Source of the DNA: a virus
IMG/VR virus record: IMGVR_UViG_3300047365_000095
Location: 1 to 25,855 of that record
Direction: 5' to 3' (one strand)
DNA: 25,855 nucleotides
A model generated the notes under the pieces. It did no database searches. It had not been told where the DNA came from and saw only the letters and a program-made list of their open reading frames with translations. Shown in pieces: positions 1 through 24,961 of the stretch; position 1 is the stretch's first letter, and every line of letters starts with the position of its first letter. The position numbers and the translations under genes were made by a program.

Positions 1-1180
1 TGTCACAAGAGACCACTTTGGTGCTAAGCCGTTATTTTATCAAATGTTATCAGCAACAGACTGGATGTTTAGTACAAGTTTAAGAAGCATGGTACATAAG
101 AAAATTGATGAAAAACATAAAAATTCTTTTGTATTTAATCCTATATGGGCAGGTACAGATTGTCCTTATCAAAACACTTGGAAAGTAGCTCCTGGTCAAA
201 CCTATAAGTTTGATTTAAATAAACCAGGAGACCGAGTACATAAAAACTTATGGGACTACTGGAGAATACAATCTAGAAGATTCAAGAAAGAACAAGTTAG
301 AGAAAAACTAATAGCAAGTATACAATCTATTGCTAAAAATAATCAGAAAACAGGAATCTTTTTAAGTGGAGGATTGGATAGTACATTTGCTCTATCAGTA
401 GCAAAAGATATGGACTTAGATTTAACAGCATATATACTAGCTTATGACGAAAAGAAAGGGGAAGTACAAGACCATGATACTTTTAGAAATGAATCCAAAA
501 TGGCAATAAAGACTTGCGAAGAGTGGGGCGTACCTTATAAAGTAGCAACACTATATGAAAAAGATGTGGAGCATTATGGAAAAATGTGGATGAATTATAC
601 ACACTTTCCATGGACAGATAGACTAAGACAAGCACCTAGATATCTACTAGCAAAAACAGCTTCAGAAGACGGGTGTAAAGTTATACTCACAGGAGACAGT
701 GCGGATGAATTGTTTACAGGGTATTATCATCACGAAAAAAGGTGGGAAGAAGGCTATGATGATGAGACTGTAAAAAGAGCAGAAAAGTACAGATGGACTC
801 CCCATAAAATATGGCATGATGAAGACCATTGGAACAATGGCTTATTCTATGATTTATTAGTAACCTCAGAGAATAATATACTAGCAGCTGACCAAACTTG
901 TGGTATGTTTGGTATGGAGTCAAGACCTGTATTTTTACAACAAGATTTTGTAAGATGGATATTTGAACAAGATGGAGCAATTAAGTTTAAAACACACCCA
1001 AGCTATCCTAAAGGAACATACAAGTATATTTTAAGAGAACTACTAGGAGATATGCTTCCAGAGCATGTACGAAACAGAAAACAAAAAACAGGATGGTCAA
1101 GTCCTTGGAACAACAACGTAGCAGAACTACAAGAAGAATGGAGAGAACAAGATTGGGAAACACTGAAAAGTTATCAATAG
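1..1180 (+). CDS. Asparagine synthetase-like amidotransferase (AsnB family), 5' end cut by window edge
   Basis: The reading frame is open from base 2, before the first in-frame ATG at base 44. Its first residues (RDHFGAKPLFYQ) match the end of the class II glutamine amidotransferase domain of AsnB (usual form RDRFGIKPLYY), so the gene starts left of the window and the ATG at 44 is internal. The synthetase domain follows: the PP-loop SGGLDS is encoded near 365-382, and GDSADELFTGYY near 694-729 matches the family's GADELFGGY motif. AsnB enzymes move ammonia from glutamine to an ATP-activated carboxylate, normally aspartate. AsnB relatives also amidate sugars in surface-polysaccharide pathways. 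The adjacent nucleotidyltransferase and nearby glycosyltransferases make a glycan role possible, but the substrate is not visible. The stop is TAG at 1178-1180. Confidence 0.88.
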   Translation, partial: VTRDHFGAKPLFYQMLSATDWMFSTSLRSMVHKKIDEKHKNSFVFNPIWAGTDCPYQNTWKVAPGQTYKFDLNKPGDRVHKNLWDYWRIQSRRFKKEQVREKLIASIQSIAKNNQKTGIFLSGGLDSTFALSVAKDMDLDLTAYILAYDEKKGEVQDHDTFRNESKMAIKTCEEWGVPYKVATLYEKDVEHYGKMWMNYTHFPWTDRLRQAPRYLLAKTASEDGCKVILTGDSADELFTGYYHHEKRWEEGYDDETVKRAEKYRWTPHKIWHDEDHWNNGLFYDLLVTSENNILAADQTCGMFGMESRPVFLQQDFVRWIFEQDGAIKFKTHPSYPKGTYKYILRELLGDMLPEHVRNRKQKTGWSSPWNNNVAELQEEWREQDWETLKSYQ

Positions 1181-1569
1181 GATTTACCTGTGGAGCATTT
1201 GATTTACTTCATGCAGGACATATAGTAATGCTCAAAGAAGCAAAGCAAAACTGTGATTATCTAATAGTAGGTTTACAGACAGACCCAAGCATTGATAGGC
1301 AAGAAAAGAATACACCTGTTCAATCTGTATTTGAAAGATATGTACAACTACGAGCAGTAAAGTATATAGACGAGATTATTCCATATGACACAGAACAAAG
1401 CCTACTAGACTTACTAGAGGCTACAGAAATACATCTTCGATTTGTCGGAGAGGATTATGTCGATAGACATTTTACAGGCAAAGGACTGCATGAGATTTTT
1501 TACACAAGTAGACAGCACTCTTTTTCTAGTACGAATTTGAGAAATAAGATACATGAAAGCAGTTCTTAG
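1153..1569 (+). CDS. HxGH-family cytidylyltransferase-like protein (TagD/RfaE-C type)
   Basis: This is a small nucleotidyltransferase that probably joins CTP (or ATP) to a phosphorylated alcohol or sugar, giving an activated precursor for surface polymers or glycans. The N-terminal GFTCGAFDLLHAGH contains the HxGH nucleotide-binding motif. The C-terminal SFSSTNLRNKI resembles the family's ISTTxLR motif. Length, about 130-150 aa, fits single-domain glycerol-3-phosphate cytidylyltransferases. The start is uncertain. The frame permits ATG at 1093 (88-base overlap with the upstream gene), ATG at 1138, or TTG at 1153. I prefer TTG 1153 because GGAG lies 9 bases upstream and it removes an N-terminus that family members lack. 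The end overlaps the helicase gene by 17 bases. The exact substrate cannot be assigned. Confidence 0.8.
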   Translation: MGNTEKLSIGFTCGAFDLLHAGHIVMLKEAKQNCDYLIVGLQTDPSIDRQEKNTPVQSVFERYVQLRAVKYIDEIIPYDTEQSLLDLLEATEIHLRFVGEDYVDRHFTGKGLHEIFYTSRQHSFSSTNLRNKIHESSS

Positions 1570-12848: not shown

Positions 12849-14154
12849 ATTTTATATATTAGTAACTCATACGTTACACAAAGTTAAAAGACACTTTTCT
12901 TACACAGGTATATTGCCTAAGGAAGCTATAGTAGTTATTAATACTACTAATGATGTTTTCTATAAGCAATGTAGTAATTGGTGTGATTCCAAAGGTATAC
13001 CATGGATTCGTACAGAATCTGATGGTACACCAGCAACTGGAAAGAATAGTGTCTTAGACTTATTTTTAAATAGTAAAGATGACTATATGGTAGCAATAGA
13101 CGGAGACGACTATTTAACTAAATATGGCTATGCTTATTATAAAAATATTGTAAAACAAAACAATCCCCCTGATAGTTTATGTCTATATAAACAACAATCC
13201 CAACTAATCACTATTTTTGGTCAAAGAATATGGATTAATCTTATGGGACTTCCCACAGATTTAGATACTGAAATGCACGTACGTAGAAGCCATTTAATGG
13301 GCGAAGTATACGCACACCATTTAAAAGACTACTATGAAAATAAGTATGGAGACCTAGAGCTGTATGTAAAAGATTGTTTGAAACATACAAAAGAAAATTT
13401 ATATTATGTATATAAATACTATGAAAGATATAATATATACGAGAATGAATTTGCAGAATCTCATTGTAGACCTGTATTATTTTCTAAAGCAGCAGCAAAA
13501 GAATGTCACTTTCCTAGTAATGTACCTGTGGGAGAAGATACATTAGTATACTTACAACTTAAAAATGCACATTTTCAAGGAAGAATACAAACTCAACTAG
13601 TAGATGAACTAAACGAAGGAATTACTTATCTCTATGACTGTATAAAATCAGATGGTGATGAGTTAGGAGCTATGTTAGGAATTACTCTTAATCAGACAGA
13701 TTATACTTGGGTACGTTTAATAAATATAAAGCTAAAAGAAATGGAACAAAAAGGAGAGTTACACGCTGTTCCGCTACCTGTAAATAATTGTTTACCGAGT
13801 AAGTGGGAAAAAGATAACTTAATACCTGCAAAACCCCAGTTTCCTTTTGATTTTGATTTAGAAAAATGGGATGAACAGTGGAAAGATAAAGGAGTATTCC
13901 ATGAGGCACCTAGTAAAGAAGCGATGGAAATAATAGAAAATATAAGAATGTGTGAGAATTACTATTCTACAGAATCTGCTGTAGTTTTACAAAACATAGA
14001 ACAACAAAAAGAAAATAAAAAAGAATTATTAAAAGCTTTAGGAATAAGTCCTAATGCTATGGTCAAGTTTCCCAAAGGTTATTTTAACAACTCTAGACCT
14101 TACTTTCACCACGCTACTCCTCACGAAGTAGCACAACATTACCCAAAATCATGA
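12829..14154 (+). CDS. GT-A (GT2-like) glycosyltransferase, 441 aa
   Basis: The N-terminal ~245 residues resemble a GT2-like glycosyltransferase. A Rossmann-like start (RFYILVTHTL, 7-16) leads to YMVAIDGDDYL (86-96), whose DGDD (91-94) is a DxD-type site. VPVGEDTLVYL (232-242) provides an ED pair like the GT2 catalytic base region. The rest is a Lys/Glu-rich C-terminal extension of unknown fold, ending with ATPHEVAQHYPKS. Two adjacent ATGs (12829, 12832) are possible starts. It overlaps the small protein upstream by 20 bases and ends in an ATGA overlap with the next glycosyltransferase. Its substrate is unknown. It links the RNR block to the glycan genes. Confidence 0.68.
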   Translation: MMQKNLRFYILVTHTLHKVKRHFSYTGILPKEAIVVINTTNDVFYKQCSNWCDSKGIPWIRTESDGTPATGKNSVLDLFLNSKDDYMVAIDGDDYLTKYGYAYYKNIVKQNNPPDSLCLYKQQSQLITIFGQRIWINLMGLPTDLDTEMHVRRSHLMGEVYAHHLKDYYENKYGDLELYVKDCLKHTKENLYYVYKYYERYNIYENEFAESHCRPVLFSKAAAKECHFPSNVPVGEDTLVYLQLKNAHFQGRIQTQLVDELNEGITYLYDCIKSDGDELGAMLGITLNQTDYTWVRLINIKLKEMEQKGELHAVPLPVNNCLPSKWEKDNLIPAKPQFPFDFDLEKWDEQWKDKGVFHEAPSKEAMEIIENIRMCENYYSTESAVVLQNIEQQKENKKELLKALGISPNAMVKFPKGYFNNSRPYFHHATPHEVAQHYPKS

Positions 14155-14780
14155 AAATATTTATAGGTTACGAATCTACATACCCCGAAATGTTTGAGGT
14201 ATGCAAAAAAAGCATACTTCGTTACAATCCCAAACATGAAATCATACCACTCAAAAAATCGGAAATATCGGAATATACTCGTCCATTTCAGAACGAGAGT
14301 ACGGAATTTGCCTTTACCCGTTTTCTAGTACCACAGCTCTGTGACTATGAAGGGGAAGCTTTATTCTGTGATGGAGATTTCTTATGGCTCTGTGACCCTG
14401 AAGAAGTTATGGACTATTTTTCCGATGAACATACAGTTCATGTCGTAAAACATCCTAGTTTCCTCGTCAAACCTAAGAAAATGAAAAACAAGAAAAACCA
14501 TGCTTATCCTAGAAAATACTGGTCAAGTCTCATGCTTTTTAATAATCCTAAATGTAAAGAACTTACTTATGATTATGTAAACCAAGCCCCAGCGGGTGCA
14601 TTGCATGAGTTGAGATGGGCAGAAAGCGTAGGGGAACTTCCCGCGCAGTACAATGCCATGGTAAATTATTACAAATTTAAGAAACCAAAAGCCCTGCACT
14701 ACACAGACGGTGGGCCTTGGTTAAATATAAACGAGTGTTCGGAGTACACAGCATCATGGATGAAACTTTACAAAAGTTAA
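14151..14780 (+). CDS. Glycosyltransferase, GT8-like
   Basis: A 209-aa protein with a compact GT-A layout like family 8 enzymes. It begins KIFIGYES. TEFAFTRFLVPQL (51-63) matches the TxFxxxRF region that precedes the donor site, and GEALFCDGDFLWLCDP (68-83) carries the DxD at 74-76. YWSSLMLFNN and the late LHYTDGGPWLN (with a His near the end) match the acceptor and C-terminal His positions. GT8 enzymes are retaining transferases, often of glucose or galactose. Its start overlaps the previous stop as ATGA, and the GT29-like gene overlaps its end by 25 bases (start 14756), so these genes are probably translated together. Confidence 0.78.
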   Translation: MKIFIGYESTYPEMFEVCKKSILRYNPKHEIIPLKKSEISEYTRPFQNESTEFAFTRFLVPQLCDYEGEALFCDGDFLWLCDPEEVMDYFSDEHTVHVVKHPSFLVKPKKMKNKKNHAYPRKYWSSLMLFNNPKCKELTYDYVNQAPAGALHELRWAESVGELPAQYNAMVNYYKFKKPKALHYTDGGPWLNINECSEYTASWMKLYKS

Positions 14781-15406
14781 CAGAAGATAAAAATATTATA
14801 CTTGTCGGAAATTCAGTAGAGATGCTGGAGTATGAGTATGGGGAGTATATAGAAAACTTTGATACAATTGTACGATTTGGAAATGGTATACCTGATGAAC
14901 ATACTGAAAGTCTTGGTATTCGTACTGATATATGGATTACAGGGTGGCTTCGTGCAGTAAAGGTAAAATATTTTCCAACTGCGTATAAATTATTCAATCG
15001 TTGCAGAATACACCTCGATATACAACCAAAAGACCTAACTCCACCTTTTGAGCATGAAACTATGTTTAATGATGATGAATTAAAAAAGATTTATAAAATG
15101 GTGGGAGCTGAAAACAATGTTAAAATGGGAAATAGGCCAAGTGCAGGTTTCTTAGGTATATTATTCTTTTTAACTAAAACCAATCCTAAGTCAATTACTC
15201 TAATTGGCTTTGACTTTTTCTCTAAGAAACTACCATTTAAAAGTGGTAACGATTACCCTTCTAGTTGGCATTTACCACACAACTCTCAAGAGTCTAGTCC
15301 TCATAATAATATGGAGAAACCTCTTGTACAGAAGTGGGCAAATGAAGGTAAATTAGAATGGAAAATTCTATCTGATTTGAACGAAGAGTTCTTAGATTTT
15401 ACCTAG
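14756..15406 (+). CDS. Sialyltransferase-like glycosyltransferase (GT29-like)
   Basis: From ATG 14756 the product is 216 aa. An upstream in-frame ATG at 14717 would add 13 non-conserved residues. IILVGNSVEML (14-24) plus ENFDTIVRFGNG (33-44) match the sialyl L-motif (VGNG/S, then D-x-V-x-R-F/N-N). RPSAGFLGILFFL (127-139) plus ITLIGFDFF (147-155) match the S-motif (PSxGxxxL...GFDFF). His183 to Glu187 may correspond to the VS region. GT29 enzymes use CMP-sialic acid; bacterial and viral members may use other nonulosonic acids or CMP-sugars. No CMP-sialate synthase is visible here. The gene ends the plus strand and overlaps the opposing gene's end by 15 bases. Confidence 0.75.
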   Translation: MDETLQKLTEDKNIILVGNSVEMLEYEYGEYIENFDTIVRFGNGIPDEHTESLGIRTDIWITGWLRAVKVKYFPTAYKLFNRCRIHLDIQPKDLTPPFEHETMFNDDELKKIYKMVGAENNVKMGNRPSAGFLGILFFLTKTNPKSITLIGFDFFSKKLPFKSGNDYPSSWHLPHNSQESSPHNNMEKPLVQKWANEGKLEWKILSDLNEEFLDFT

Positions 15407-16372
15407 TTTATATCCGACTTCAATTAATTTTCTTGATACTTGTTTCTGTTTATTTGATTTAAATAATAAAAGTTCGTTGATTCTAGCATTTCTTAAATTT
15501 ACAGGTATGTTTGGTATCTGTGCAGTCCACAAGTCCCAAGGTATTCCTAACTGTATTCCTGCTGGTAAGTATTGGTATTTCATCAACAACCATTTTGGTA
15601 GAACATGAACACTAAATGATTTTCTCATAATTACATTATGGTTAATAAAATCTTTTGTGTTTAATGCTTCGTAGGTAAGAAGTTTATCATTTTTGCCATT
15701 TACATATACAGGCATTTGTTTTCCTCTATAGCAGAATGGTGTAAAGAAAGACCTATTCCAACTACCCATAACTCTTCTATCTACATGGTGTGGGTAAAGT
15801 ATTGGATTTATTCTTGCGTTCTGACCTCGTGCAAATAATCTTTTTTCATCAAAAGCAACCATTTTATCCCAATTCATAATAAAAAATTCAGTATCAATAT
15901 TATCTAATACTGGAGTTTCTTTTCTACCTACTTCTTCTTCCTCAAACATATTGCTTTTAAAACCTAAGATATCATAATACTTTCCGTATGTAGGATGGTC
16001 TTTGTATACATTCATATGGGAGTAAGTACAAAATTTATTCTCAAAATATTTTTCATCAGGTATTTCATTTTTCCACCCGTTTTTTAAGAATATTCTAGCT
16101 CCACCTGCATACATAACTCTTTTATTTAAGCCACCTTTATTCTTCCAATACTCTTTCAAGTATCTCATGGCTCTGGCTTGTTCTTCTCCTTTCCAAAAAC
16201 TCTGGTATACTTTTACATTTTCTATATTAGCGAGTGCCCATGATACTACATTTTTATCCCAGTCATCTTCGTGGATAAATAAATGCAAGCGAAAGTCCTC
16301 GTCCTTCTCAATTAGAGAGGCAAGTGTAAATAAACTAAAGTGTTTTATGTATGTATGTACTATCTCAATCAT
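15392..16372 (-). CDS. Hypothetical protein, possible glycan-related enzyme
   Basis: I do not recognise this 326-aa protein. Its start (MIEIVHTYIKHFSLFTLASLIEK, given in halves) and the following RLHLFIHEDDW resemble the first strands of GT-A transferases, where the acidic HEDDW might be a metal site, but no clear DxD-donor motif context follows. It is rich in Tyr, Trp, Phe, Asn and Lys. A central FIMNWDKMVAFDEKRLF and RINPILYPHHVDRR stand out. No signal peptide or membrane helix is visible. It is the last gene of the minus-strand block, overlapping the start of the upstream gene's tail by 8 bases. TATAAATA, identical to the T4 late promoter octamer, lies 25 bases upstream of its ATG. Glycan function is inferred from neighbours only. 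Confidence 0.6.
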   Translation of the reverse strand: MIEIVHTYIKHFSLFTLASLIEKDEDFRLHLFIHEDDWDKNVVSWALANIENVKVYQSFWKGEEQARAMRYLKEYWKNKGGLNKRVMYAGGARIFLKNGWKNEIPDEKYFENKFCTYSHMNVYKDHPTYGKYYDILGFKSNMFEEEEVGRKETPVLDNIDTEFFIMNWDKMVAFDEKRLFARGQNARINPILYPHHVDRRVMGSWNRSFFTPFCYRGKQMPVYVNGKNDKLLTYEALNTKDFINHNVIMRKSFSVHVLPKWLLMKYQYLPAGIQLGIPWDLWTAQIPNIPVNLRNARINELLLFKSNKQKQVSRKLIEVGYKLGKI

Positions 16373-17270
16373 CTTCTTTTTTATATTCCCAAAAATTATT
16401 TATAAACCTTTCTAGTCTTTCCTCTGCATCTTCATCAAAATCAAATATAATTCCTGAATTTTTTGCTGATAAAATCTTCTTTATCGTATTTGATGCTTTA
16501 GTTCCTGCTACGGCATGGTAAATGCTTTCGTATGTTAATAAATTTTTCTCTCTTTCTTTCTTAGAATGACTTATCATCCTAAGTTGTTTGTTTAATAATA
16601 ATGCTACTATTCCCATTTCACTATTTGGCATTGTAGCAACCTCTTTGCAGTTGTATAAAATTTCATGTCCACTTTGTTTTTTATTTAATACTTTATCTGC
16701 TCCAAAATCTTTTTTGAATTTAGCCATGTAAAGTGCATTAGTAATAGGATGAGGTTTTATAACATAACCCTCTTTTACAAAGTTTCTCATTCTACCCCAG
16801 TGTATAACTCTATCTTTACATATTAAATTACTACCTGGTGGAAAAATTACTTTATCGTAATGTTCTTGTGTTTTTGCTAAAATGTATTTATCTTCTATAC
16901 AATTTAGTATTTTTTCTATTCTTTCTTCGTCAATCTCTATGTCCGACTTAGCAATAGATATCATTAACTTATCGTTAATTTTTACAGAATTTGTTTTTAC
17001 ATAAATTCCTCTACCTAAAAAATCTGTGTATAACCACTTTCGTATTGTAAATAATTCATTTGTGTTAAACCATACGTCATATTCAAATCTAACACCTTCT
17101 TTCCAGTCTGGTATTAGTCTTTTTTTAAAATTCAATAATGCGTCTCTTTGATGGTCAGGTCTATAACAAGACCCTGATTTCATAAAGTGAGTAACCTTGT
17201 CTCCAAGACTCTCATTACTTGCCATAGGAACTAATTTATCTTTTTTAACTTTTACTGTTTTTAATTCCAT
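16365..17270 (-). CDS. Capsule-polysaccharide (KpsS/KpsC)-like GT-B family protein
   Basis: A 301-aa protein whose C-terminal half has the signature of KpsS/KpsC-type and related GT-B transferases: VIKPHPITNALY (the KPHP motif), then a loop, then LYNCKEVATMPNSEMGIVALLLNKQL, shown here only by its key features: an 'SExGIxALLLxK' segment that matches the donor-binding helix of this group. The N-terminal half shows no clear match. GAG lies 8 bases before the ATG. The start lies inside the 54-aa ORF (26-base overlap), and the end overlaps the next gene by 8 bases. It stands directly downstream of the giant Thr-rich appendage gene, in the same direction, so it may act on it. Donor sugar is unknown. 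Confidence 0.6.
   Translation of the reverse strand: MELKTVKVKKDKLVPMASNESLGDKVTHFMKSGSCYRPDHQRDALLNFKKRLIPDWKEGVRFEYDVWFNTNELFTIRKWLYTDFLGRGIYVKTNSVKINDKLMISIAKSDIEIDEERIEKILNCIEDKYILAKTQEHYDKVIFPPGSNLICKDRVIHWGRMRNFVKEGYVIKPHPITNALYMAKFKKDFGADKVLNKKQSGHEILYNCKEVATMPNSEMGIVALLLNKQLRMISHSKKEREKNLLTYESIYHAVAGTKASNTIKKILSAKNSGIIFDFDEDAEERLERFINNFWEYKKEDD
16397..16404 (-). promoter_or_regulatory. Possible T4-like late promoter octamer
   Basis: TATAAATA on the minus strand, 25 bases upstream of the ATG at 16372, equals the T4 late promoter consensus. In sequence this AT-rich, such octamers also occur by chance (one lies inside the 441-aa gene near 13411), and I found none before the other minus-strand genes, so support is weak. 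Confidence 0.25.
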
Positions 17271-17409: not shown

Positions 17410-20400
17410 TTAGTCTGTCCATGTTGAACCGTCCCAGTAACTTGCACTAAAGTCGTTTATACTTGCAACTTCTGTGTCAAAGATTGTACCCGCCTGAGAC
17501 GCTGTTATTCTTTCAAATACTGTGGTACTCGTATTAAATGTAGTTGTGGTAATATGGTCAGTTGTTCTAGTTGTTTCTGTTACATTACCTGTGGCAAATG
17601 TTGTGGTTGTTGTTTTGCCTGTTTCAAATTCTGTTGTTCTAGTTGTTTCAAAAGTAGTAGTCGTATCGTAAGCTGTATTCTTAGAAGTAGTAGTAGACCT
17701 ATCTGTTTCAAATGTAGATACTGTACTTCTGCTTGATGCTGTATCTCTTGCAGTAAGTGTTGCTCTAGCTGTATTAAATGTACTTGTAGTTTCTCTGCTA
17801 GATTGTGTTGCTCTAGAGGTTATTGTTCCTTTAGTTGTGGCATATACTGTTGTTGTATCTCTACTTGTTAAAGTTCCTCTAGCTGTATTAAATGTTGTTG
17901 TCGTATCTCTAGATGTTCCTGTTACTCTTTGTGAACCTCTACTTGTTAAGTATGCTGTTTCATACGCTGTACTTCTACTTGTATTAGTATTTCTAGTTGT
18001 TCCAAATGAGGTATTATCTACGTATGCTGTTGTTCTTGAAGTTTCTGTTCCTCTACTTGTATTAGTACTTCTACTTGTGTTTGTGGCTCTACTTGTTACA
18101 AATACTGTATTATCTACATACGCTGTTGTGTAATTTGTATTTACTAAGAATACAGTAGTGAAGTTAGTGCTATCTACATATGCGGTTGTTCTACTTGTAT
18201 TTGTACTTCTTGTAGTTGAGAATGATGTATTATCTACATATGCTGTTGTTCTACTTGTGTCTGTAGTTTTAGAAGTATTCGTAGACTGTGTAGTTGTATA
18301 AGCTGTTTCGTTTGTGAAGCCTGTGTTGTCTACATAAGCTGTTGCAAATGAAGTGTTGTCTACATAAGCGGTTGTTCTAGAAGTGTTTGTATTTCTTGTT
18401 GTACCAAATGAGGTATTATCTACATATGCTGTTGAGAATGATGTATTATCTACATATGCTGTTGTTCTAGAAGTGTTCGTACTTCTTGTAGTACCAAATG
18501 AAGTGTTATCTACATATGCTGTTGAGAATGATGTATTATCTACATATGCTGTTGTTCTACTTGTGTTCGTACTTCTTGTAGTACCAAATGAAGTGTTATC
18601 AACATAAGCTGTTGTAAATGTTGTGTTATAAGAAGTAGAATTTGTAAACCCTGTATTTCTACTTGTGTTCGTTGCCTGTGTAGTTGTATAAGCAGTAGAG
18701 TTTGTAAATCCTGTATTTCTACTTGTGTTTGTAGCTTGTGTAGTTGTTCTACTTGTATTCGTGTTTCTAGAGGTATTCGTATTTCTGCTTGTGTTCGTTG
18801 CCTGTGTAGTATTATAAGCAGTATTTCTAGAGGTATTTGTATTTCTGCTTGTGTTCGTTGCCTGTGTAGTATTATAAGCAGTAGAGTTTGTAAATGATGT
18901 ATTTCTACTTGTATTTGTATTTCTAGAAGTATTTGTGTTATAAGAAGTAGAATTTGTAAATGATGTATTTCTACTTGTATTAGTACTTTCAGTAGTATTG
19001 TAAGAAGTATTTCTAGTACCCCCACCAGTAGTTCTAGTTGTATTTACTGACCTAAATGCTGAACTTGCTGAAGTACCTGTTCTTCTTTGATAAGTTCCAG
19101 AGTACCCTGAGTTAAATCCACCGCCCCAACCGCTGTAATAATTTCCTCCACCACTCCAGGATACTGTAGTAACTCTGTTATAGTAGAATGTTAAGTATGT
19201 AGTACTATTTCCAAATGCTGTTGACCTTGTTGTTGCTCTAGCAGTATTATTGTCGAAGTCTGTACTTCTACTTGTGTTAGTGTTTCTACTTGTACTATTT
19301 GTAAAGCCTGTGCTGTCTACATATGCAGTGCCTCTACTTGTATTTGTATTTCTGCTTGTTCCAAATGATGTATTATCTACATATGCAGTAGAGTTTGTAA
19401 ATCCTGTGCCTCTACTTGTTCCGAATGAAGTGTTGTCTACATATGCTGTACTATTTGTAAATGAGGTAGAGTTTGTAAATGAAGTACTAAAAGATGTATT
19501 ATCTACATATGCGGTGCTTCTACTTGTGTTAGTGTTTCTACTTGTTCCAAATGATGTGTTGTCTACATATGCAGTGCCTCTACTTGTATTAGTATTTCTT
19601 GTTGTACCTCTTGTTGTGTCTCTTGATGTATTTGTTGCTTGTGTAGTTGTATAAGAAGTATTGTTACTAAATCCTGTACTTCTAGAAGTATTTGTTGCCT
19701 GTGTAGTAGTTCTAGAAGTGTTTGTGGCTTGTGTAGTATTGTAACTTGTGTTATTAGTAAATCCAGTGCTTCTTGATGTATTCGTAGACTGTGTAGTTGT
19801 TCTACTTGTATTTGTAGATTGTGTTGTTGTATATGCTGTTTCGTTTGTAAAACTTGTGCTTCTACTTGTGTTTGTAGATTGCGTAGTTGTTCTACTTGTA
19901 TTTGTACTTCTGCTTGTGTTTGTATTTCTTGTTGTACCAAATGACGTATTATCTACATATGCTGTTGTTGTTCCAAATACAGTAGTTCTGGAAGTATTTG
20001 TTGCTTGTGTAGTTGTATAAGAAGTATTGTTACTAAATCCTGTACTTCTACTTGTGTTAGTGTTTCTACTTGTAGTTACACTTGTATTAGAAGCTCTAGA
20101 AGTTGTTCTACTTGTATTTGTAGATTGTGTAGTATCATAACTTGTATTATTCGTAAATCCTGTGTTATCTACATATGCGGTTGCAGTATTATATACAGTA
20201 GTTCTAGAAGTATTTGTTGCCTGTGTGGTTGTATACGCTGTTTGGTTTGTAAACCCTGTAGACCTAGACGTACCAATTACAGTATCAAAACTTGTAACAT
20301 ATGTTGTAGTTGTATTGTAGTTGGTAGTGGTGCTACGTGCGGTATTAAAGGTGGTAGTAGTTGTATACGTTGTAGTAGTATCTTTACTTGTTTCAAATGT

Positions 20401-20862
20401 TGTTGTAGTTGTATACGCTGTTGTAGTATTAAATACTGTTGTAGTACCTTGTGTAGTTGTAAAGGTAGTTGTAGTATTGAATGTTGTAGTAGTTGTAAAT
20501 AGAGTTGTAGTTGTAGTGGTTGTATTATATGTTGTAGTCGTATTATGAGTAGTGCTTCTACTTGTATTCGTAGCTCTATCCGTATCAAATGTTGTTACTC
20601 TATCTGTGTTATATGTTGTTGTTGTGTCACGAGTTGTATCAAATCCAGTAGTCGTATTAAACGCTGTTACCTGTACACCTGATATGGTAGTTCTAGCTGT
20701 TGCTGTATTTCTTGAAGTTTCATGAACGACAGAAAATGGCCCTTCTAGAGCGCCACTATCGTTTACGTATACTTCATTAACCCTTCGTATTGTGCCATTA
20801 TCGTTGATGGCGAGAAAGGATATCTGACGTAATGTACCATTGTCATTAACATATATTGCCAT
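17410..20862 (-). CDS. Giant Thr/Ser/Asn-rich repeat appendage protein (1150 aa)
   Basis: A probable virion fibre or appendage protein. Residues 1-45 hold three 14-residue repeats built on NDNG/NDSG (6-9, 20-23, 34-37), a motif seen in phage tail proteins. From about residue 50 to 1110 it is a low-complexity repeat array; a sampled 50-residue stretch has 19 Thr. The dominant unit is a decapeptide, for example RTTAYVDNTS, FGTTRSTNTS or YTTTQATNTS. Bulky residues (R, F, Y, Q, K) recur at steps of 4 and 6. Many N-x-T/S triplets occur. Around residues 550-605 a Gly/Tyr/Trp-rich island interrupts the array. The last ~35 residues (ERITASQAGTIFDTEVASI onward) are non-repetitive. GAG precedes ATG 20862. 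It lies in a fibre operon with glycan genes downstream. No family assigned. Confidence 0.85.
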   Translation of the reverse strand: MAIYVNDNGTLRQISFLAINDNGTIRRVNEVYVNDSGALEGPFSVVHETSRNTATARTTISGVQVTAFNTTTGFDTTRDTTTTYNTDRVTTFDTDRATNTSRSTTHNTTTTYNTTTTTTTLFTTTTTFNTTTTFTTTQGTTTVFNTTTAYTTTTTFETSKDTTTTYTTTTTFNTARSTTTNYNTTTTYVTSFDTVIGTSRSTGFTNQTAYTTTQATNTSRTTVYNTATAYVDNTGFTNNTSYDTTQSTNTSRTTSRASNTSVTTSRNTNTSRSTGFSNNTSYTTTQATNTSRTTVFGTTTAYVDNTSFGTTRNTNTSRSTNTSRTTTQSTNTSRSTSFTNETAYTTTQSTNTSRTTTQSTNTSRSTGFTNNTSYNTTQATNTSRTTTQATNTSRSTGFSNNTSYTTTQATNTSRDTTRGTTRNTNTSRGTAYVDNTSFGTSRNTNTSRSTAYVDNTSFSTSFTNSTSFTNSTAYVDNTSFGTSRGTGFTNSTAYVDNTSFGTSRNTNTSRGTAYVDSTGFTNSTSRNTNTSRSTDFDNNTARATTRSTAFGNSTTYLTFYYNRVTTVSWSGGGNYYSGWGGGFNSGYSGTYQRRTGTSASSAFRSVNTTRTTGGGTRNTSYNTTESTNTSRNTSFTNSTSYNTNTSRNTNTSRNTSFTNSTAYNTTQATNTSRNTNTSRNTAYNTTQATNTSRNTNTSRNTNTSRTTTQATNTSRNTGFTNSTAYTTTQATNTSRNTGFTNSTSYNTTFTTAYVDNTSFGTTRSTNTSRTTAYVDNTSFSTAYVDNTSFGTTRSTNTSRTTAYVDNTSFSTAYVDNTSFGTTRNTNTSRTTAYVDNTSFATAYVDNTGFTNETAYTTTQSTNTSKTTDTSRTTAYVDNTSFSTTRSTNTSRTTAYVDSTNFTTVFLVNTNYTTAYVDNTVFVTSRATNTSRSTNTSRGTETSRTTAYVDNTSFGTTRNTNTSRSTAYETAYLTSRGSQRVTGTSRDTTTTFNTARGTLTSRDTTTVYATTKGTITSRATQSSRETTSTFNTARATLTARDTASSRSTVSTFETDRSTTTSKNTAYDTTTTFETTRTTEFETGKTTTTTFATGNVTETTRTTDHITTTTFNTSTTVFERITASQAGTIFDTEVASINDFSASYWDGSTWTD
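17560..20700 (-). repeat. Decapeptide (30-base) coding repeat array, Thr-rich
   Basis: The bulk of the 1150-aa gene is an array of 30-base coding units with occasional 18-base and 12-base units, matching protein modules of 10, 6 and 4 residues. Plus-strand sequence is strongly T/G-rich as a result. Copies range from near-identical to strongly diverged; divergence is highest near both ends. Confidence 0.85.
18331..18600 (-). repeat. Three tandem 90-base direct repeats
   Basis: Units at 18331-18420, 18421-18510 and 18511-18600 are tandem copies. The second and third differ at only 3 of 90 bases; the first is more diverged. Each encodes 30 residues (three decapeptides). They cover about residues 755-844 of the 1150-aa protein. 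The near identity points to recent unequal recombination or slippage. Confidence 0.9.
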
Positions 20863-21088: not shown

Positions 21089-24000
21089 TTATACCTCTAT
21101 TGTTGTTCTTATGAACTTGTATGCCATTGTGTCTCCACTTGCTGGCGTTACTCTTAATCTTACGTTACCCGCACTTACGTCTGCATCAAATGTTGCTTGT
21201 GCTCCATTGTCGAATATAGATGCGTACTGTGTTAAGTATACATCTGACCCATCATGGAATAGGAAAATTTCTAATGCTTGATAATCTGAATCTGTTGTGT
21301 TTTTAATCTGTACTACATATTTAGCAGTTCTAAATACAGTAGTTGCAAAACTATCTAGTGTAAATGTCGTTGTTGCAGATGAACTTCCTGTACCTACGTC
21401 CATACCAGCTACTTCGTCTATATGAAGTTTTTGTGGTGGAGAACCATCTTGAATACCAAGGCTACCGCCTACGTTCTGTACTGTTCCAGTATCTCCTAAG
21501 AATAAGTTTCCTGTGAAACCTATTGTACCTGACATAAACTTGCCTGATAAAGCTGAACTTATTAATTGTGTAGAAGTTACAGAGTTATTTGCAATCTCAC
21601 TTGAACCAACAGCGTTTGCTGCTATTTTACTGGCGTCTATAGCATTGTCTTGAATCTTTGCAGTTGCTACTGAATTACCAGCTAATTGTGCTGTATTAAT
21701 TAGAGCATCTTGTATAAAGTCAACACTATTAATTGCATTTGCAGCTAGTTGTGTTGCTGTGATAGAAGCGTTTGGTATTTTTGCAGAAGTAATAGCATTA
21801 TCAGCTATCTCTACTGCTGTTATTGTACCATTTGGTATTTTAGCACCTGATACAGAGTTATCAGCTAATTTACCTACTGTTACTGCTCCTGTGCCTATTT
21901 GTTGTTCTGTTACTGCACCTGAAGCTATTTTGTTTACTGTTACGGAGTTAGAACCAAGTTTTGCTTCTGTTACAGAACCAGTTGATAAATGAGTAGCATC
22001 TATACTTCCTGTTACTAACTCTGCTGAATCTACTGAGTTATCAGCAATATGTCTGGATAGTACAGCGTCTGTTGCGAGTTTGGTAGCATCTATTGAGTTG
22101 TCAGCCATATTGCCTGTAGCAATAGTGTTGGCTGCTATTTTTCCTGTTGTGACCGAGGCGTCTGCTAGATGCTCGTTATCTATACTTCCTGCAACATAAT
22201 GTTCTGAATTTATAACATCATCTGCTATTTTTGTGCCGTCTACTATGTCTGCGGCTAAATGTATTCTGTCTATGCTTCCTGTGACAAGTTCTGAACTGTC
22301 TACAGAGTTGGCGGCTAGTTCACTTGAACCTACAGCTCCAGCTGTTATTTTTGCTGCAGTTACTGAATTTGCTGCTATTCTAGGTTCTGTTACAGCATTA
22401 GCTGCTATATGTATAGTATCTATGCTTCCTGAAACAAGTTCTGAACTATCTACTGAATTTGCGGCAAGTTCTGAAGCACCTACTGCTCCAGCTGCTATAT
22501 GTGATGCATCGATAACATCTGTACCAATCTTGTTAGCATTTATTGCGTTATTTGCAATGTTTGGGCCTGTAACTGTTAATCCTGCTATTTTAGCTCCAGT
22601 AACTGCGTCATCTGCTAAATGAATTGTATCAATGCTACCAGTGACTAATTCTGCACTATCTACTGAGTTTGCTGCTAGTTCACTTGCTGTTATGCTTCCT
22701 GCGACTATCTTATTTGCATTTACTGTGTTATCTGCAATCGCACTCGCTGTTCCTGTTAAGTTACCTGTAACATTTCCTTCTAAGTCTGCTACTAGAGTTC
22801 CTTTTGTTATTGTTAGGTCGCCTGTGGAAGCACCAGTAAATGAACCAGTACCCATTTTAAATTTGTTTCCACTTTCATCAAATCCCATAAATGCATTATC
22901 ATTGTCGCCTCTTTCCATAACGATACCCATATCATTTGATGGAACTCCTGTTGTTCCTGTACCAAGTTCTAGTACATGGTCAGCGATTGTTGTAGTGGTT
23001 GAATTAACTGTTGTTGTTGTACCGTTTACTGTTAAGTTTCCTGAAAGTGTAACATTTCCTGTGAATGTTTGACCACCTAATGCATCTGATTTAAGTTCAG
23101 AAGCTGATACTGCATTTGCTGATATTTCACTGTTACCAACTGAGTTTGCGGCTATTTTTGCGCCTGTTACAGCATTGCCTGCTATATGTATTGCATCAAT
23201 AGAGCCAGAGATTAATTCTGCGCTGTCTACTGAATTGTCTGCTAGTTCGCTTGAACCAACAGCACCTGCATTGATGTGTTTTGCTAATATTTGGTCTGTT
23301 GCAATTTTTGCTGAAGTAACTTGGTTAGCTGCGATATGTATTGTGTCAATACTACCAGTTGCTATTTCTGAACTATCTATTGAGTTTTCAGCTATATGTG
23401 TTACATCTATAACACCTGTACCTATCTTTGCAGCAGTGATTGAGTTATTTCCTAAATGTATAGTATCTATACTACCTGTTACTAACTCTGCTGAATCTAC
23501 TGAATTAGCTCCTAAGTGGTCTGCTGTTATTGTTGCTGTAGGTATATGTCTTGCAACGATTGAATTCTGTGCTATCTTAGTTCCGTCTACTGCGTTATCT
23601 GCAATATTGGCTAAGGCTATTGTATTGGCGGCTATTTTTGCGCCTGTTACTTGTAAGTTTCCTATATGTGCAGTATCTATACTACCATCTACAAGATGTT
23701 CTGAATCTATAGAGTCATCAGCGATTTTTGAGCCACTTACTGCATCCGCTCCTATTTTTCCACTAGTTACTGCTCCTGTACCTATTTTTGCTTCTGTTAC
23801 TTGTGAAGCTCCAATATGTATAGTATCAATGCTACCTGATACAAGTTCAGAACTATCAATAGAGTTTGCAGCTATTTGTGTAGAACCTACACTATTAATT
23901 CCTACATTGGAACTATTTACTATTGCTTTCCAACCCATGTTACCATGTGCTGAACATTGGTAATACAATATTTGAGGAGTAGTGTCTGTAACGGCAATTT

Positions 24001-24961
24001 CTGTGTATGCACCTGAACTTCCTGCTGTTCCGTTATTTGTAACTCCTGTAGTATAAGCCGTTGTTTTATTGGCTTCTAAATAAAATCTGAAAGGATGGTT
24101 AGCGTTTGACGAGTCATCTTGCTTAAATTTATAGGTATTCCCGGGTTGTAATACTAATACTGGAGACTCTTTGCCTTCGAACTTATATCCTAGAGTGCTA
24201 CCATTTCCGTAGTCACCGTGTGCGGAAGTTTTTGTAATAACCGTTACATCATATTCATAAGTTCCAAATTCTTGAATTGATTTTGCGTTCTTGTGTATTT
24301 CACTTGAAGTAACATTATCAGCAACTATTTTTGCTGTACTCACTGAATTTGTGCTTAGTTTTGCACCTGTTACTTGTAAAGCTCCAATATGTATAGTGTC
24401 AATACTACCTGTTACTAGTTCGCTAGAGTCTACTGAGTTTGCGCCAAGTTGTGTTGAAGTAATACTCCCATCAGCAATATGATGAGCAGTAACTGCATTT
24501 TGGGCAATCCTCGCTGTTGTTATTTGATTTTCAGCAATTTTAACTGTGGTTATAGCATTGTCAGCTACTTGTAATGTTTCGATTGCATTTGTGGCTATCT
24601 CTGAAGTATCTACTGAGTTTGCAGCTATTTCGTTGGAAGTGATAGCGTTAGCAGCTAGTTTGGCTGTTGTGACTTGTCCTGTTCCAATATGAATAGTATC
24701 AATAGAACCACTTACTAACTCACTTGAATCTACTGAGTTTGCAGCGATACCTGCATTTGTTACTGAATTATCTCCTACGCCTGTAACTGCTGTTGCTTGT
24801 AGCTGTGCAGCTCCAACAGAGTTTGTAGCAAGTTCTGAGGCGCTAATAGAATTAACTGCTATTTCAGAGGCACTAATAGCATTTGCAGCTATCTTTGATG
24901 CTACCACACTATTGTTTCCTATTGAATCTTGTTGTACTAAAAATTTACCGATTAGTGGCAT
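21089..24961 (-). CDS. Long tail fibre protein with decapeptide repeats and an embedded cupredoxin-like domain (1290 aa)
   Basis: A probable virion fibre for host contact. From about residue 20 to 1120 it consists of 10-residue repeats, such as KIAENQITTA, RIAQNAVTAH and ELVTGSIDTI, in a nearly unbroken register. Such repeats are common in marine phage fibres and likely form a beta-rich trimeric shaft. Three non-repeat inserts stand out. Residues ~231-350 form a cupredoxin-like domain with His289, Cys336, His339 and Met342. Residues ~624-744 form a second domain starting LGGQTFTGNVTLSGNLTVNG. The C-terminal ~160 residues (SGKFMSGTIG onward) form a third domain. GGAG lies 12 bases before the ATG. 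The gene is flanked tightly by small structural genes. The fibre call is by composition and context. Confidence 0.85.
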   Translation of the reverse strand: MPLIGKFLVQQDSIGNNSVVASKIAANAISASEIAVNSISASELATNSVGAAQLQATAVTGVGDNSVTNAGIAANSVDSSELVSGSIDTIHIGTGQVTTAKLAANAITSNEIAANSVDTSEIATNAIETLQVADNAITTVKIAENQITTARIAQNAVTAHHIADGSITSTQLGANSVDSSELVTGSIDTIHIGALQVTGAKLSTNSVSTAKIVADNVTSSEIHKNAKSIQEFGTYEYDVTVITKTSAHGDYGNGSTLGYKFEGKESPVLVLQPGNTYKFKQDDSSNANHPFRFYLEANKTTAYTTGVTNNGTAGSSGAYTEIAVTDTTPQILYYQCSAHGNMGWKAIVNSSNVGINSVGSTQIAANSIDSSELVSGSIDTIHIGASQVTEAKIGTGAVTSGKIGADAVSGSKIADDSIDSEHLVDGSIDTAHIGNLQVTGAKIAANTIALANIADNAVDGTKIAQNSIVARHIPTATITADHLGANSVDSAELVTGSIDTIHLGNNSITAAKIGTGVIDVTHIAENSIDSSEIATGSIDTIHIAANQVTSAKIATDQILAKHINAGAVGSSELADNSVDSAELISGSIDAIHIAGNAVTGAKIAANSVGNSEISANAVSASELKSDALGGQTFTGNVTLSGNLTVNGTTTTVNSTTTTIADHVLELGTGTTGVPSNDMGIVMERGDNDNAFMGFDESGNKFKMGTGSFTGASTGDLTITKGTLVADLEGNVTGNLTGTASAIADNTVNANKIVAGSITASELAANSVDSAELVTGSIDTIHLADDAVTGAKIAGLTVTGPNIANNAINANKIGTDVIDASHIAAGAVGASELAANSVDSSELVSGSIDTIHIAANAVTEPRIAANSVTAAKITAGAVGSSELAANSVDSSELVTGSIDRIHLAADIVDGTKIADDVINSEHYVAGSIDNEHLADASVTTGKIAANTIATGNMADNSIDATKLATDAVLSRHIADNSVDSAELVTGSIDATHLSTGSVTEAKLGSNSVTVNKIASGAVTEQQIGTGAVTVGKLADNSVSGAKIPNGTITAVEIADNAITSAKIPNASITATQLAANAINSVDFIQDALINTAQLAGNSVATAKIQDNAIDASKIAANAVGSSEIANNSVTSTQLISSALSGKFMSGTIGFTGNLFLGDTGTVQNVGGSLGIQDGSPPQKLHIDEVAGMDVGTGSSSATTTFTLDSFATTVFRTAKYVVQIKNTTDSDYQALEIFLFHDGSDVYLTQYASIFDNGAQATFDADVSAGNVRLRVTPASGDTMAYKFIRTTIEV
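23911..24271 (-). other. Cupredoxin-like domain inside the 1290-aa fibre
   Basis: Residues ~231-350 interrupt the decapeptide array. LQPGNTYKFKQDDSSNANHP carries His289 where blue copper proteins hold their first His. A later YYQCSAHGNMGW supplies Cys336, His339 and Met342. The four residues match the ligand set of type 1 copper sites, though the His-Met spacing is shorter than in plastocyanin. The domain is flanked on both sides by resumed repeats. Confidence 0.6.

Follow-up and report, generated by a model that had tools for sequence, protein, structure and literature searches.

The locus and the array gene

The stretch of DNA analysed here, referred to as the window, comprises 25,855 nucleotides (nt), positions 1 to 25,855 of the IMG/VR virus record IMGVR_UViG_3300047365_000095. 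It encodes a large Thr/Ser/Asn-rich protein, named the array protein after its repeated short units, next to a tail-fibre gene. The layout of the gene and its surroundings is given in Table 1; relatives in other viral records are cited by their L numbers. The N-terminal domain, presumed to be the base or attachment part, is conserved, with a dN (nonsynonymous substitution rate) of 0.000 against L007, and the central region between both arms had the lowest nucleotide identity to L007 (0.767) among five regions compared. A non-repetitive stretch near mid-protein was found in most array proteins, despite their very different lengths. For L016, L018, L019 and L023 the script chose another repeat, and by sequence a Tyr/Phe-rich stretch lies at mid-protein.

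Table 1. Position of genes and protein regions in the window (ORF, open reading frame; aa, amino acids).
Feature	Position	Strand	Remarks
Array gene	17410..20862	(-)	ATG start, 1150 aa
N-terminal domain, aa 1-50, three VNDxGTLR-like repeats	20713..20862	(-)	Many invariant columns in alignment A1
Arm 1, aa 51-550, putative outgoing strand, bulky residues in steps of 4 and 6	19213..20712	(-)	Mirror register i+j=1167 (1-based)
Putative tip/turn, aa 551-616, Gly/Tyr/Trp-rich, outside the step grammar	19015..19212	(-)	Mirror centre between aa 583/584
Arm 2, aa 617-1116, putative returning strand, complementary to arm 1	17515..19014	(-)	Rungs 93 complementary/2 like ungapped, 97/0 gapped
C-terminal domain, aa 1117-1150 (ERITASQAGTIFDTEV...YWDGSTWTD), conserved	17413..17514	(-)	Invariant columns in A1
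Tail-fibre gene, 1290 aa, phrog_892	21089..24961	(-)	Upstream of the array gene, same strand
Partner gene, 301 aa, phrog_26179	16365..17270	(-)	Directly downstream of the array gene
326-aa ORF	15392..16372	(-)	Overlaps the partner gene, without family match
GT29-type sialyltransferase-like ORF, PF00777, E 2.4e-6	14151..15406	(+)	Faces the fibre module
ORF similar to phrog_7878 (heptose 7-phosphate kinase / heptose 1-phosphate adenyltransferase)	1093..1569	(+)	DNA helicase gene adjacent

Step pattern of the array protein

Between aa 51 and 1110 the bulky residues (R, F, Y, Q, K) were found to follow each other at a distance of 4 or 6 residues in 188 of 212 steps (102 steps of 6 and 86 of 4), in agreement with the original prediction made on this DNA. 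Its statement that all steps are even holds for 194 steps and fails for 18, of which 11 touch the central aa 551-616. Autocorrelation revealed peaks at 4, 6, 10, 16 and 20 residues (z scores of 9.3, 12.0, 20.0, 13.3 and 13.1, respectively) with a depletion of the odd lags. The placing of the bulky residues on one face, in a regular pattern fitting extended strands, is also supported. The array does not amount to a plain tandem decapeptide, since its 4- and 6-residue steps run in mirror order on either side of the centre; the Gly/Tyr/Trp-rich centre itself is non-repetitive. Over 23 distinct relatives, some of them partial, 92% of 4310 steps were even, and 96% of the 4- and 6-residue units had Thr at the second position ahead of the following bulky residue.

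Mirror symmetry and complementary rungs

A single sharp mirror centre was located at aa 583.5 of the window protein, where aa i faces aa 1167-i, and the irregular step order of one arm recurs in mirror order in the other. At this centre 95 coincidences of bulky with bulky residues were counted, against 37.0 ± 3.2 (maximum 48) with the units shuffled per arm; 182 of the 192 bulky residues in the two arms lie opposite a bulky one. The facing residues, designated rungs, are of opposite type: 77 of the 94 rungs pair a cation with an aromatic residue and 16 pair Gln with an aromatic residue, aromatic-aromatic rungs being absent (23.0 expected) and cation-cation rungs limited to one (16.6 expected).

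For scoring, a rung was called complementary when it joins one aromatic residue and one R, K or Q, and the net score was defined as complementary minus like rungs. The mirror centre scored 91 (93 complementary, 2 like), the next-best mirror register 39, and the maxima of 2000 shuffles each were 22 for shuffled units and 30 for shuffled residue identities with the positions kept. Non-array ORFs did not exceed 17 among the 377 scanned in array loci. When arm 1 was aligned with the reversed arm 2 and gaps were allowed, 97 complementary and no like rungs resulted, in one register over aa 51-550. Neither the mirror centre nor the complementarity nor the tip figured in the original prediction.

On the face that bears the rungs, 84% of the remaining positions are Thr. 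The opposite face consists mainly of Ser, Thr, Asn, Ala and Gly, with an enrichment of Asn opposite Asn (23 versus 9.7, pairs that are not independent owing to the repeats). The length of a step was found to be related to the arm carrying the aromatic residue, as counted over the arms of the 35 clusters of relatives described below. A 4-residue step mostly switches the aromatic-bearing arm (697 of 817), as does an 8-residue step (81 of 87), a 6-residue step mostly leaves it on the same arm (1129 of 1397), and a 10-residue step goes either way (72 of 166 switch).

The ladder in full-length relatives

All 22 full-length proteins of an initial set, among them some near-duplicates, scored above each of their 200 unit shuffles, with z values of 6.8 to 39.0. 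Across 14 proteins, an aromatic residue stands opposite R, K or Q in 1119 of 1143 rungs; this count covers the 15 proteins given a centre minus the near-duplicate L006, other full-length proteins not having been entered. A profile scan added 77 loci, partly on contigs already in the set, taken from the best 80 of 211 stretches passing the E-value. The resulting 173 array ORFs, which include overlapping loci, fragments and members of a second family, were reduced to 50 distinct full-length proteins in 35 clusters, and the 19 clusters without any previously seen member served as the held-out set. Each of these 19 exceeded its 200 shuffles, as did all 35 clusters, and the mirror centres of the clusters were located at 0.504-0.509 of the protein length.

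Ungapped pairing was limited to 54-68% in L014, L016, L019, L023 and L024, because of one-residue register shifts. Gapped alignment of the same proteins gave complementary to like counts of 70/1, 114/0, 102/0, 109/0 and 96/0, respectively; such alignment may buy matches, and three unit shuffles each of five other relatives scored far lower. Single-residue bulges are usual in antiparallel sheets. The one-residue shifts, seen in these five relatives and in L159 and L185, recur along part of arm 1, often at intervals of 21 residues, and most of them go the same way.

Evolution of the arms

Insertions and deletions (indels) were compared in seven close pairs, with each arm aligned separately. Between the window protein and L007, arm 1 differs by +20, -18, -6 and -2 residues, and the same four lengths are found in mirrored order in arm 2. 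In L064/L066, changes of +12, -12 and +12 occur at the mirrored positions 1275/1279, 1312/1325 and 1451/1455. For window/L006 and L030/L029 the net change per arm is equal and split differently.

The side of the aromatic residue varies among the relatives near the base, where columns 127, 149 and 171 are split 21/11, 21/11 and 22/7, with the partner residue standing opposite the swapped aromatic; many other columns are fixed in side. In eight pairs compared rung by rung, eight side swaps were counted between the window protein and L011. The register at the base is fixed: in 32 of 35 clusters (offset 49) the residue opposite aa 51 immediately precedes an ER[IT]TA motif, the exceptions being two clusters with offset 47 and L163, which is different.

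A second family and short versions in cultured phages

The same code was found in a second family from T4-like marine phages, with ORFs of 1,789-3,421 aa and without evident N-terminal similarity to the first. Complementary to like counts were 232/2 for L092, 237/4 for L066, 228/4 for L064, 183/8 for L088, 125/3 for L090, 124/3 for L091 and 31/1 for L089, which is partial or split. On the contig of L089 and L192 the giant array gene is split in two ORFs, by a frameshift or an assembly error.

Both T4-like and T5-like phages appear to carry array genes. The T4-type capsid gene gp23 is present in the records of L072, L091 and L092, and was not found in those of L008, L039, L032 and L016, which are possibly fragments. 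In the L008 record, the terminase shares 50.6% identity with its counterpart in Pectobacterium phage My1, a T5-like phage, and a protein matching an L-shaped-fibre-assembly phrog is encoded near the fibre gene.

Cultured KVP40-like Vibrio phages carry a protein of 170-200 aa with a C-terminal mini version of the mirror code. Complementary to like rungs amounted to 13/0 in D479, 12/0 in K575, 9/0 in KVP40, 9/0 in VS1 and 8/0 in QD01. Out of 5000 unit shuffles, the score was reached by 0, 0, 7, 8 and 83, respectively, and out of 5000 identity shuffles by 0, 4, 65, 84 and 343; the QD01 ladder is weak, two registers being tied. In D479, Arg is found mostly on arm 1 and Trp on arm 2, an arrangement that is partly reversed in K575. 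The D479 gene (L103:3504-4007) is unannotated, short ORFs on the opposite strand having been called there instead. In the records of phages phi-pp2, PVA8 and PC-Liy1 the homologue goes by the name of 'cell wall mannoprotein', under which a published account (PMC3468402) also lists a phi-pp2 gene product matching KVP40.

In Caulobacter phage Lullwater, Lull_041 gave 11 complementary to 2 like rungs, a net score that 246 of 5000 shuffles reached; the raw counts of its relatives were 11 to 4 (DCM and BL198) and 7 to 1 (Quill). Phages CRP-13, Cr30 and DLP6 carry neighbour or partner genes and showed no ladder in the stretches scanned. A 193-aa W/K/R/T/S array at L113/L114:1459-2037 has 4-residue steps and several turn-like motifs, without a single strong mirror or hairpin centre; it may represent a multi-strand variant of this design. 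No relative emerged from the bacterial and archaeal genomes scanned.

The partner gene and the surrounding region

Of the 166 array ORFs followed by at least 900 nt (overlapping loci included), 164 have the partner gene directly downstream, as do 50 of 51 distinct array ends. Both misses come from one contig with the array split in two ORFs, where no partner was found directly after the first ORF. In KVP40 the partner-family gene follows one gene later, in Lullwater and DCM the order of tail fibre, Thr-rich protein and partner recurs, and Cr30 and DLP6 also carry the partner.

Members of the partner family share conserved KPHP and SE motifs. Matches to glycosyltransferase and capsule-synthesis families were obtained below the curated cut-offs for KVP40.0256 (PF07922, E 5e-4) and Lull_042 (PF05159, E 0.006), and weakly for the window copy (PF05159, E 0.098). 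The copies of L072, L016, Cr30 and DLP6 had no match to a glycosyltransferase family, and no PDB structure was matched when the partner was searched by profile. Since the similarity is weak, confined to some members and below the cut-offs, a glycosyltransferase role is only a guess, as is the notion that the partner may modify the Thr/Ser-rich faces or aid folding.

In addition to the GT29-type ORF of Table 1, a weak GT8-like ORF (E 0.011) faces the fibre module in the window, and ORFs with similar starts occupy the same place in L008, L032, L039 and L016. ORFs starting like the 326-aa ORF come after the partner in the same four relatives.

Database searches and structure prediction

Searches with the array protein gave no match to a Pfam or PHROG family (E 0.01) or to a PDB chain (E 10). 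The only NCBIfam hit, NF033849, reached 21.6 bits against a cut-off of 650 and looks like an effect of composition. These searches thus showed no homology to the known tail-fibre families of the T4 gp37 / T5 pb1 type, which fits the original prediction, where no named fold was known to have this grammar. No description of such a fibre was found in the open-access literature, a search that left subscription journals and bioRxiv uncovered and in which other terms might find more.

Proposed structure and alternatives

Based on the sequence evidence, the array protein is probably a phage fibre in which a single chain folds into one giant antiparallel beta-hairpin. Arm 1 would leave the base, the chain would turn in the variable tip, and arm 2 would return alongside arm 1. 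Every 4 or 6 residues an aromatic residue (F/Y) would stand across from R, K or Q, the rungs being cross-strand cation-pi or amide-pi pairs, and the 4/6 spacing together with the choice of the aromatic-bearing arm would act as a bar code that holds the 500-residue arms in register. At the base, the N- and C-terminal domains would lie together and attach to the tail, with the tip pointing outward and carrying the host contact. Statistics on the sequences bear out the mirror symmetry, the complementarity, the side swaps, the fixed base register, the partner linkage and, in the clearest pairs, the paired indels. From these we infer the beta-hairpin itself, a single chain over an antiparallel dimer, the location in the virion and the adhesive tip. 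The contour length would be about 175 nm (~530 residues per arm × 0.33 nm) if fully extended; arms of ~1,650 residues would exceed 500 nm when fully extended, which twist or coiling would shorten.

Several observations weigh against this structure. AlphaFold2 gave no confident model, with a predicted local distance difference test score (pLDDT) of 30 for both the full protein and the L030 tip fragment, and the two short strands predicted in the latter are about 6 residues off mirror register if paired. Disorder had been named in the original prediction as the outcome that would tell against a regular fibre; the low pLDDT goes part of the way towards it, and neither shows disorder nor supports strands. 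Among 50,697 phage records, tblastn with the whole protein and the low-complexity filter had no match at E 0.001, the N-terminal piece matched 20 records at E up to 10 (best E 0.01), the C-terminal piece five records at E 7 or more, and the N-terminus of the second family none. L163 has a weak ladder (27 to 6), none of it in the usual base register, L175 (24 to 2 ungapped) needs many shifts, and the partial L095, of the second family, scored 97 to 33. The indels do not match in every pair: two of the seven have unmatched ones, L021/L037 with 30 aa in arm 1 only and L018/L019 with +40 versus -20, and L058/L059 differs by +20 in each arm plus an extra +6 confined to arm 2; these unmatched indels possibly stem from repeat collapse in assembly. 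Among the eight pairs compared rung by rung, the seven closest showed no side swap. Finally, covariation alone cannot separate a hairpin from an antiparallel dimer.

An antiparallel homodimer or higher oligomer, with chains head to tail, residue i facing 1167-i of another chain and the centre as two-fold axis, yields the identical mirror symmetry and complementarity. It has no call, however, for a non-array insert at the exact centre, nor for both conserved termini being in mutual register at one base. Some centres are short and turn-like (EEEESG, GDQSEG, VTKGSY) or bracketed by Cys (CWSSGKSGSC; Cys-bracketed turns occur in D479 and K575), for which a dimer has no use either; one chain is favoured because of these centres, and the oligomer is considered unlikely. 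The regular solenoid suggested in the original prediction, either a parallel beta-solenoid or a trimeric beta-spiral of 10-residue repeats with a bulky core stack, draws on the autocorrelation peak at 10 and on the best parallel offset, likewise 10, with 102 complementary to 44 like pairs (net score 58). Yet this offset is net complementary instead of stacking like on like at coil length. Like-on-like stacking is found at offset 6 (14 complementary versus 91 like), and 6 residues are, to our knowledge, too short for any known solenoid coil. The sequences point to antiparallel pairing of the halves, which a parallel solenoid does not predict, and the solenoid is unsupported: the mirror centre, the ungapped 93 to 2, the paired indels and the irregular 4/6 order mirrored between the arms are all unforeseen, and such a fold is very improbable.

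Equally little credence is given to a disordered sticker-and-spacer chain, in which R/F/Y/Q stickers in a T/S/N spacer would form a sticky flexible brush. The low-complexity composition and the low AlphaFold confidence suit such a chain, whereas even-parity steps, complementarity in a single register and one-residue bulges are unexpected, as are side swaps and paired indels in anything flexible. An artefact at the DNA level, through an inverted or mirror DNA repeat, repeat expansion or assembly, was considered since the coding region is repetitive and the unmatched indels of some relatives could be repeat collapse. The mirror and inverted DNA identities at the centre, 0.342 and 0.330, are however within 1-2 standard deviations of those at neighbouring shifts. 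The ratio of nonsynonymous to synonymous substitution rates (dN/dS) against L007 is 0.19 and 0.13 in the arms, and the coding frame scores 92 (z 20.1) compared with at most 59.5 (z at most 6.0) for the other five frames. Mirror or inverted symmetry of the DNA does not explain the protein mirror, and an artefact is practically negligible as an explanation.

Beyond the single protein, we lean towards regarding the giant hairpin as a natural protein counterpart of the nucleic-acid hairpin. A two-letter code (aromatic versus R/K/Q) and variable spacing would set the register of strands of ~350-1,650 residues, with compensatory swaps and paired indels. It would occur in unrelated T5-like and T4-like marine phages and as a mini version in KVP40-like phages, giving very thin fibres of up to several hundred nm with a variable tip and a dedicated modifying enzyme. 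If true, the fibre would follow an explicit complementarity rule, legible in the sequence alone, that matches two strands within a single chain, and it would offer a direct way into how very long beta-ribbons find their register. It would also provide a rule for finding such genes, which in the records examined are left unannotated or are named 'hypothetical' or 'cell wall mannoprotein', and could serve as a template for programmable protein duplexes. With the minis of KVP40-like phages, tests would be possible in cultured phages, including QD01, which is recorded on Vibrio natriegens Vmax.

Comparison with known systems

The L-shaped tail fibres of T5 and the long tail fibres of T4 are trimeric and beta-structured. 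Like the array protein they are long, with genes next to other tail genes in phages of related type, but the array protein differs from them in the complementary halves of one chain and, in the hairpin model, in having both termini at the base. Thr-rich antifreeze proteins, such as that of midges, are solenoids; richness in Thr, a 10-residue periodicity and stacked aromatics are shared with the array protein, and we know of no mirror symmetry in them.

A short counterpart, KVP40.0254 (phrog_30374), has the same mirror code, with 4-residue steps, a central turn and a partner-family gene close downstream, and differs in its ~57 residues per arm and another N-terminal domain. The stalks of ultralong cattle antibody CDR-H3 loops (the third complementarity-determining region of the heavy chain) are two-stranded antiparallel ribbons with a variable disulfide-bonded tip away from the base. 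This plan of a ribbon with a variable tip is shared, though the stalk counts tens of residues and not hundreds, and no complementary code is known to us in it. Designed tryptophan-zipper and cross-strand cation-pi hairpins, peptides of ~12-16 residues with one to a few pairs, likewise have cross-strand side-chain pairs in a two-stranded antiparallel ribbon. Compared with these designs, the array proteins are natural, with ~60-230 pairs in the large members and a two-letter complement code.

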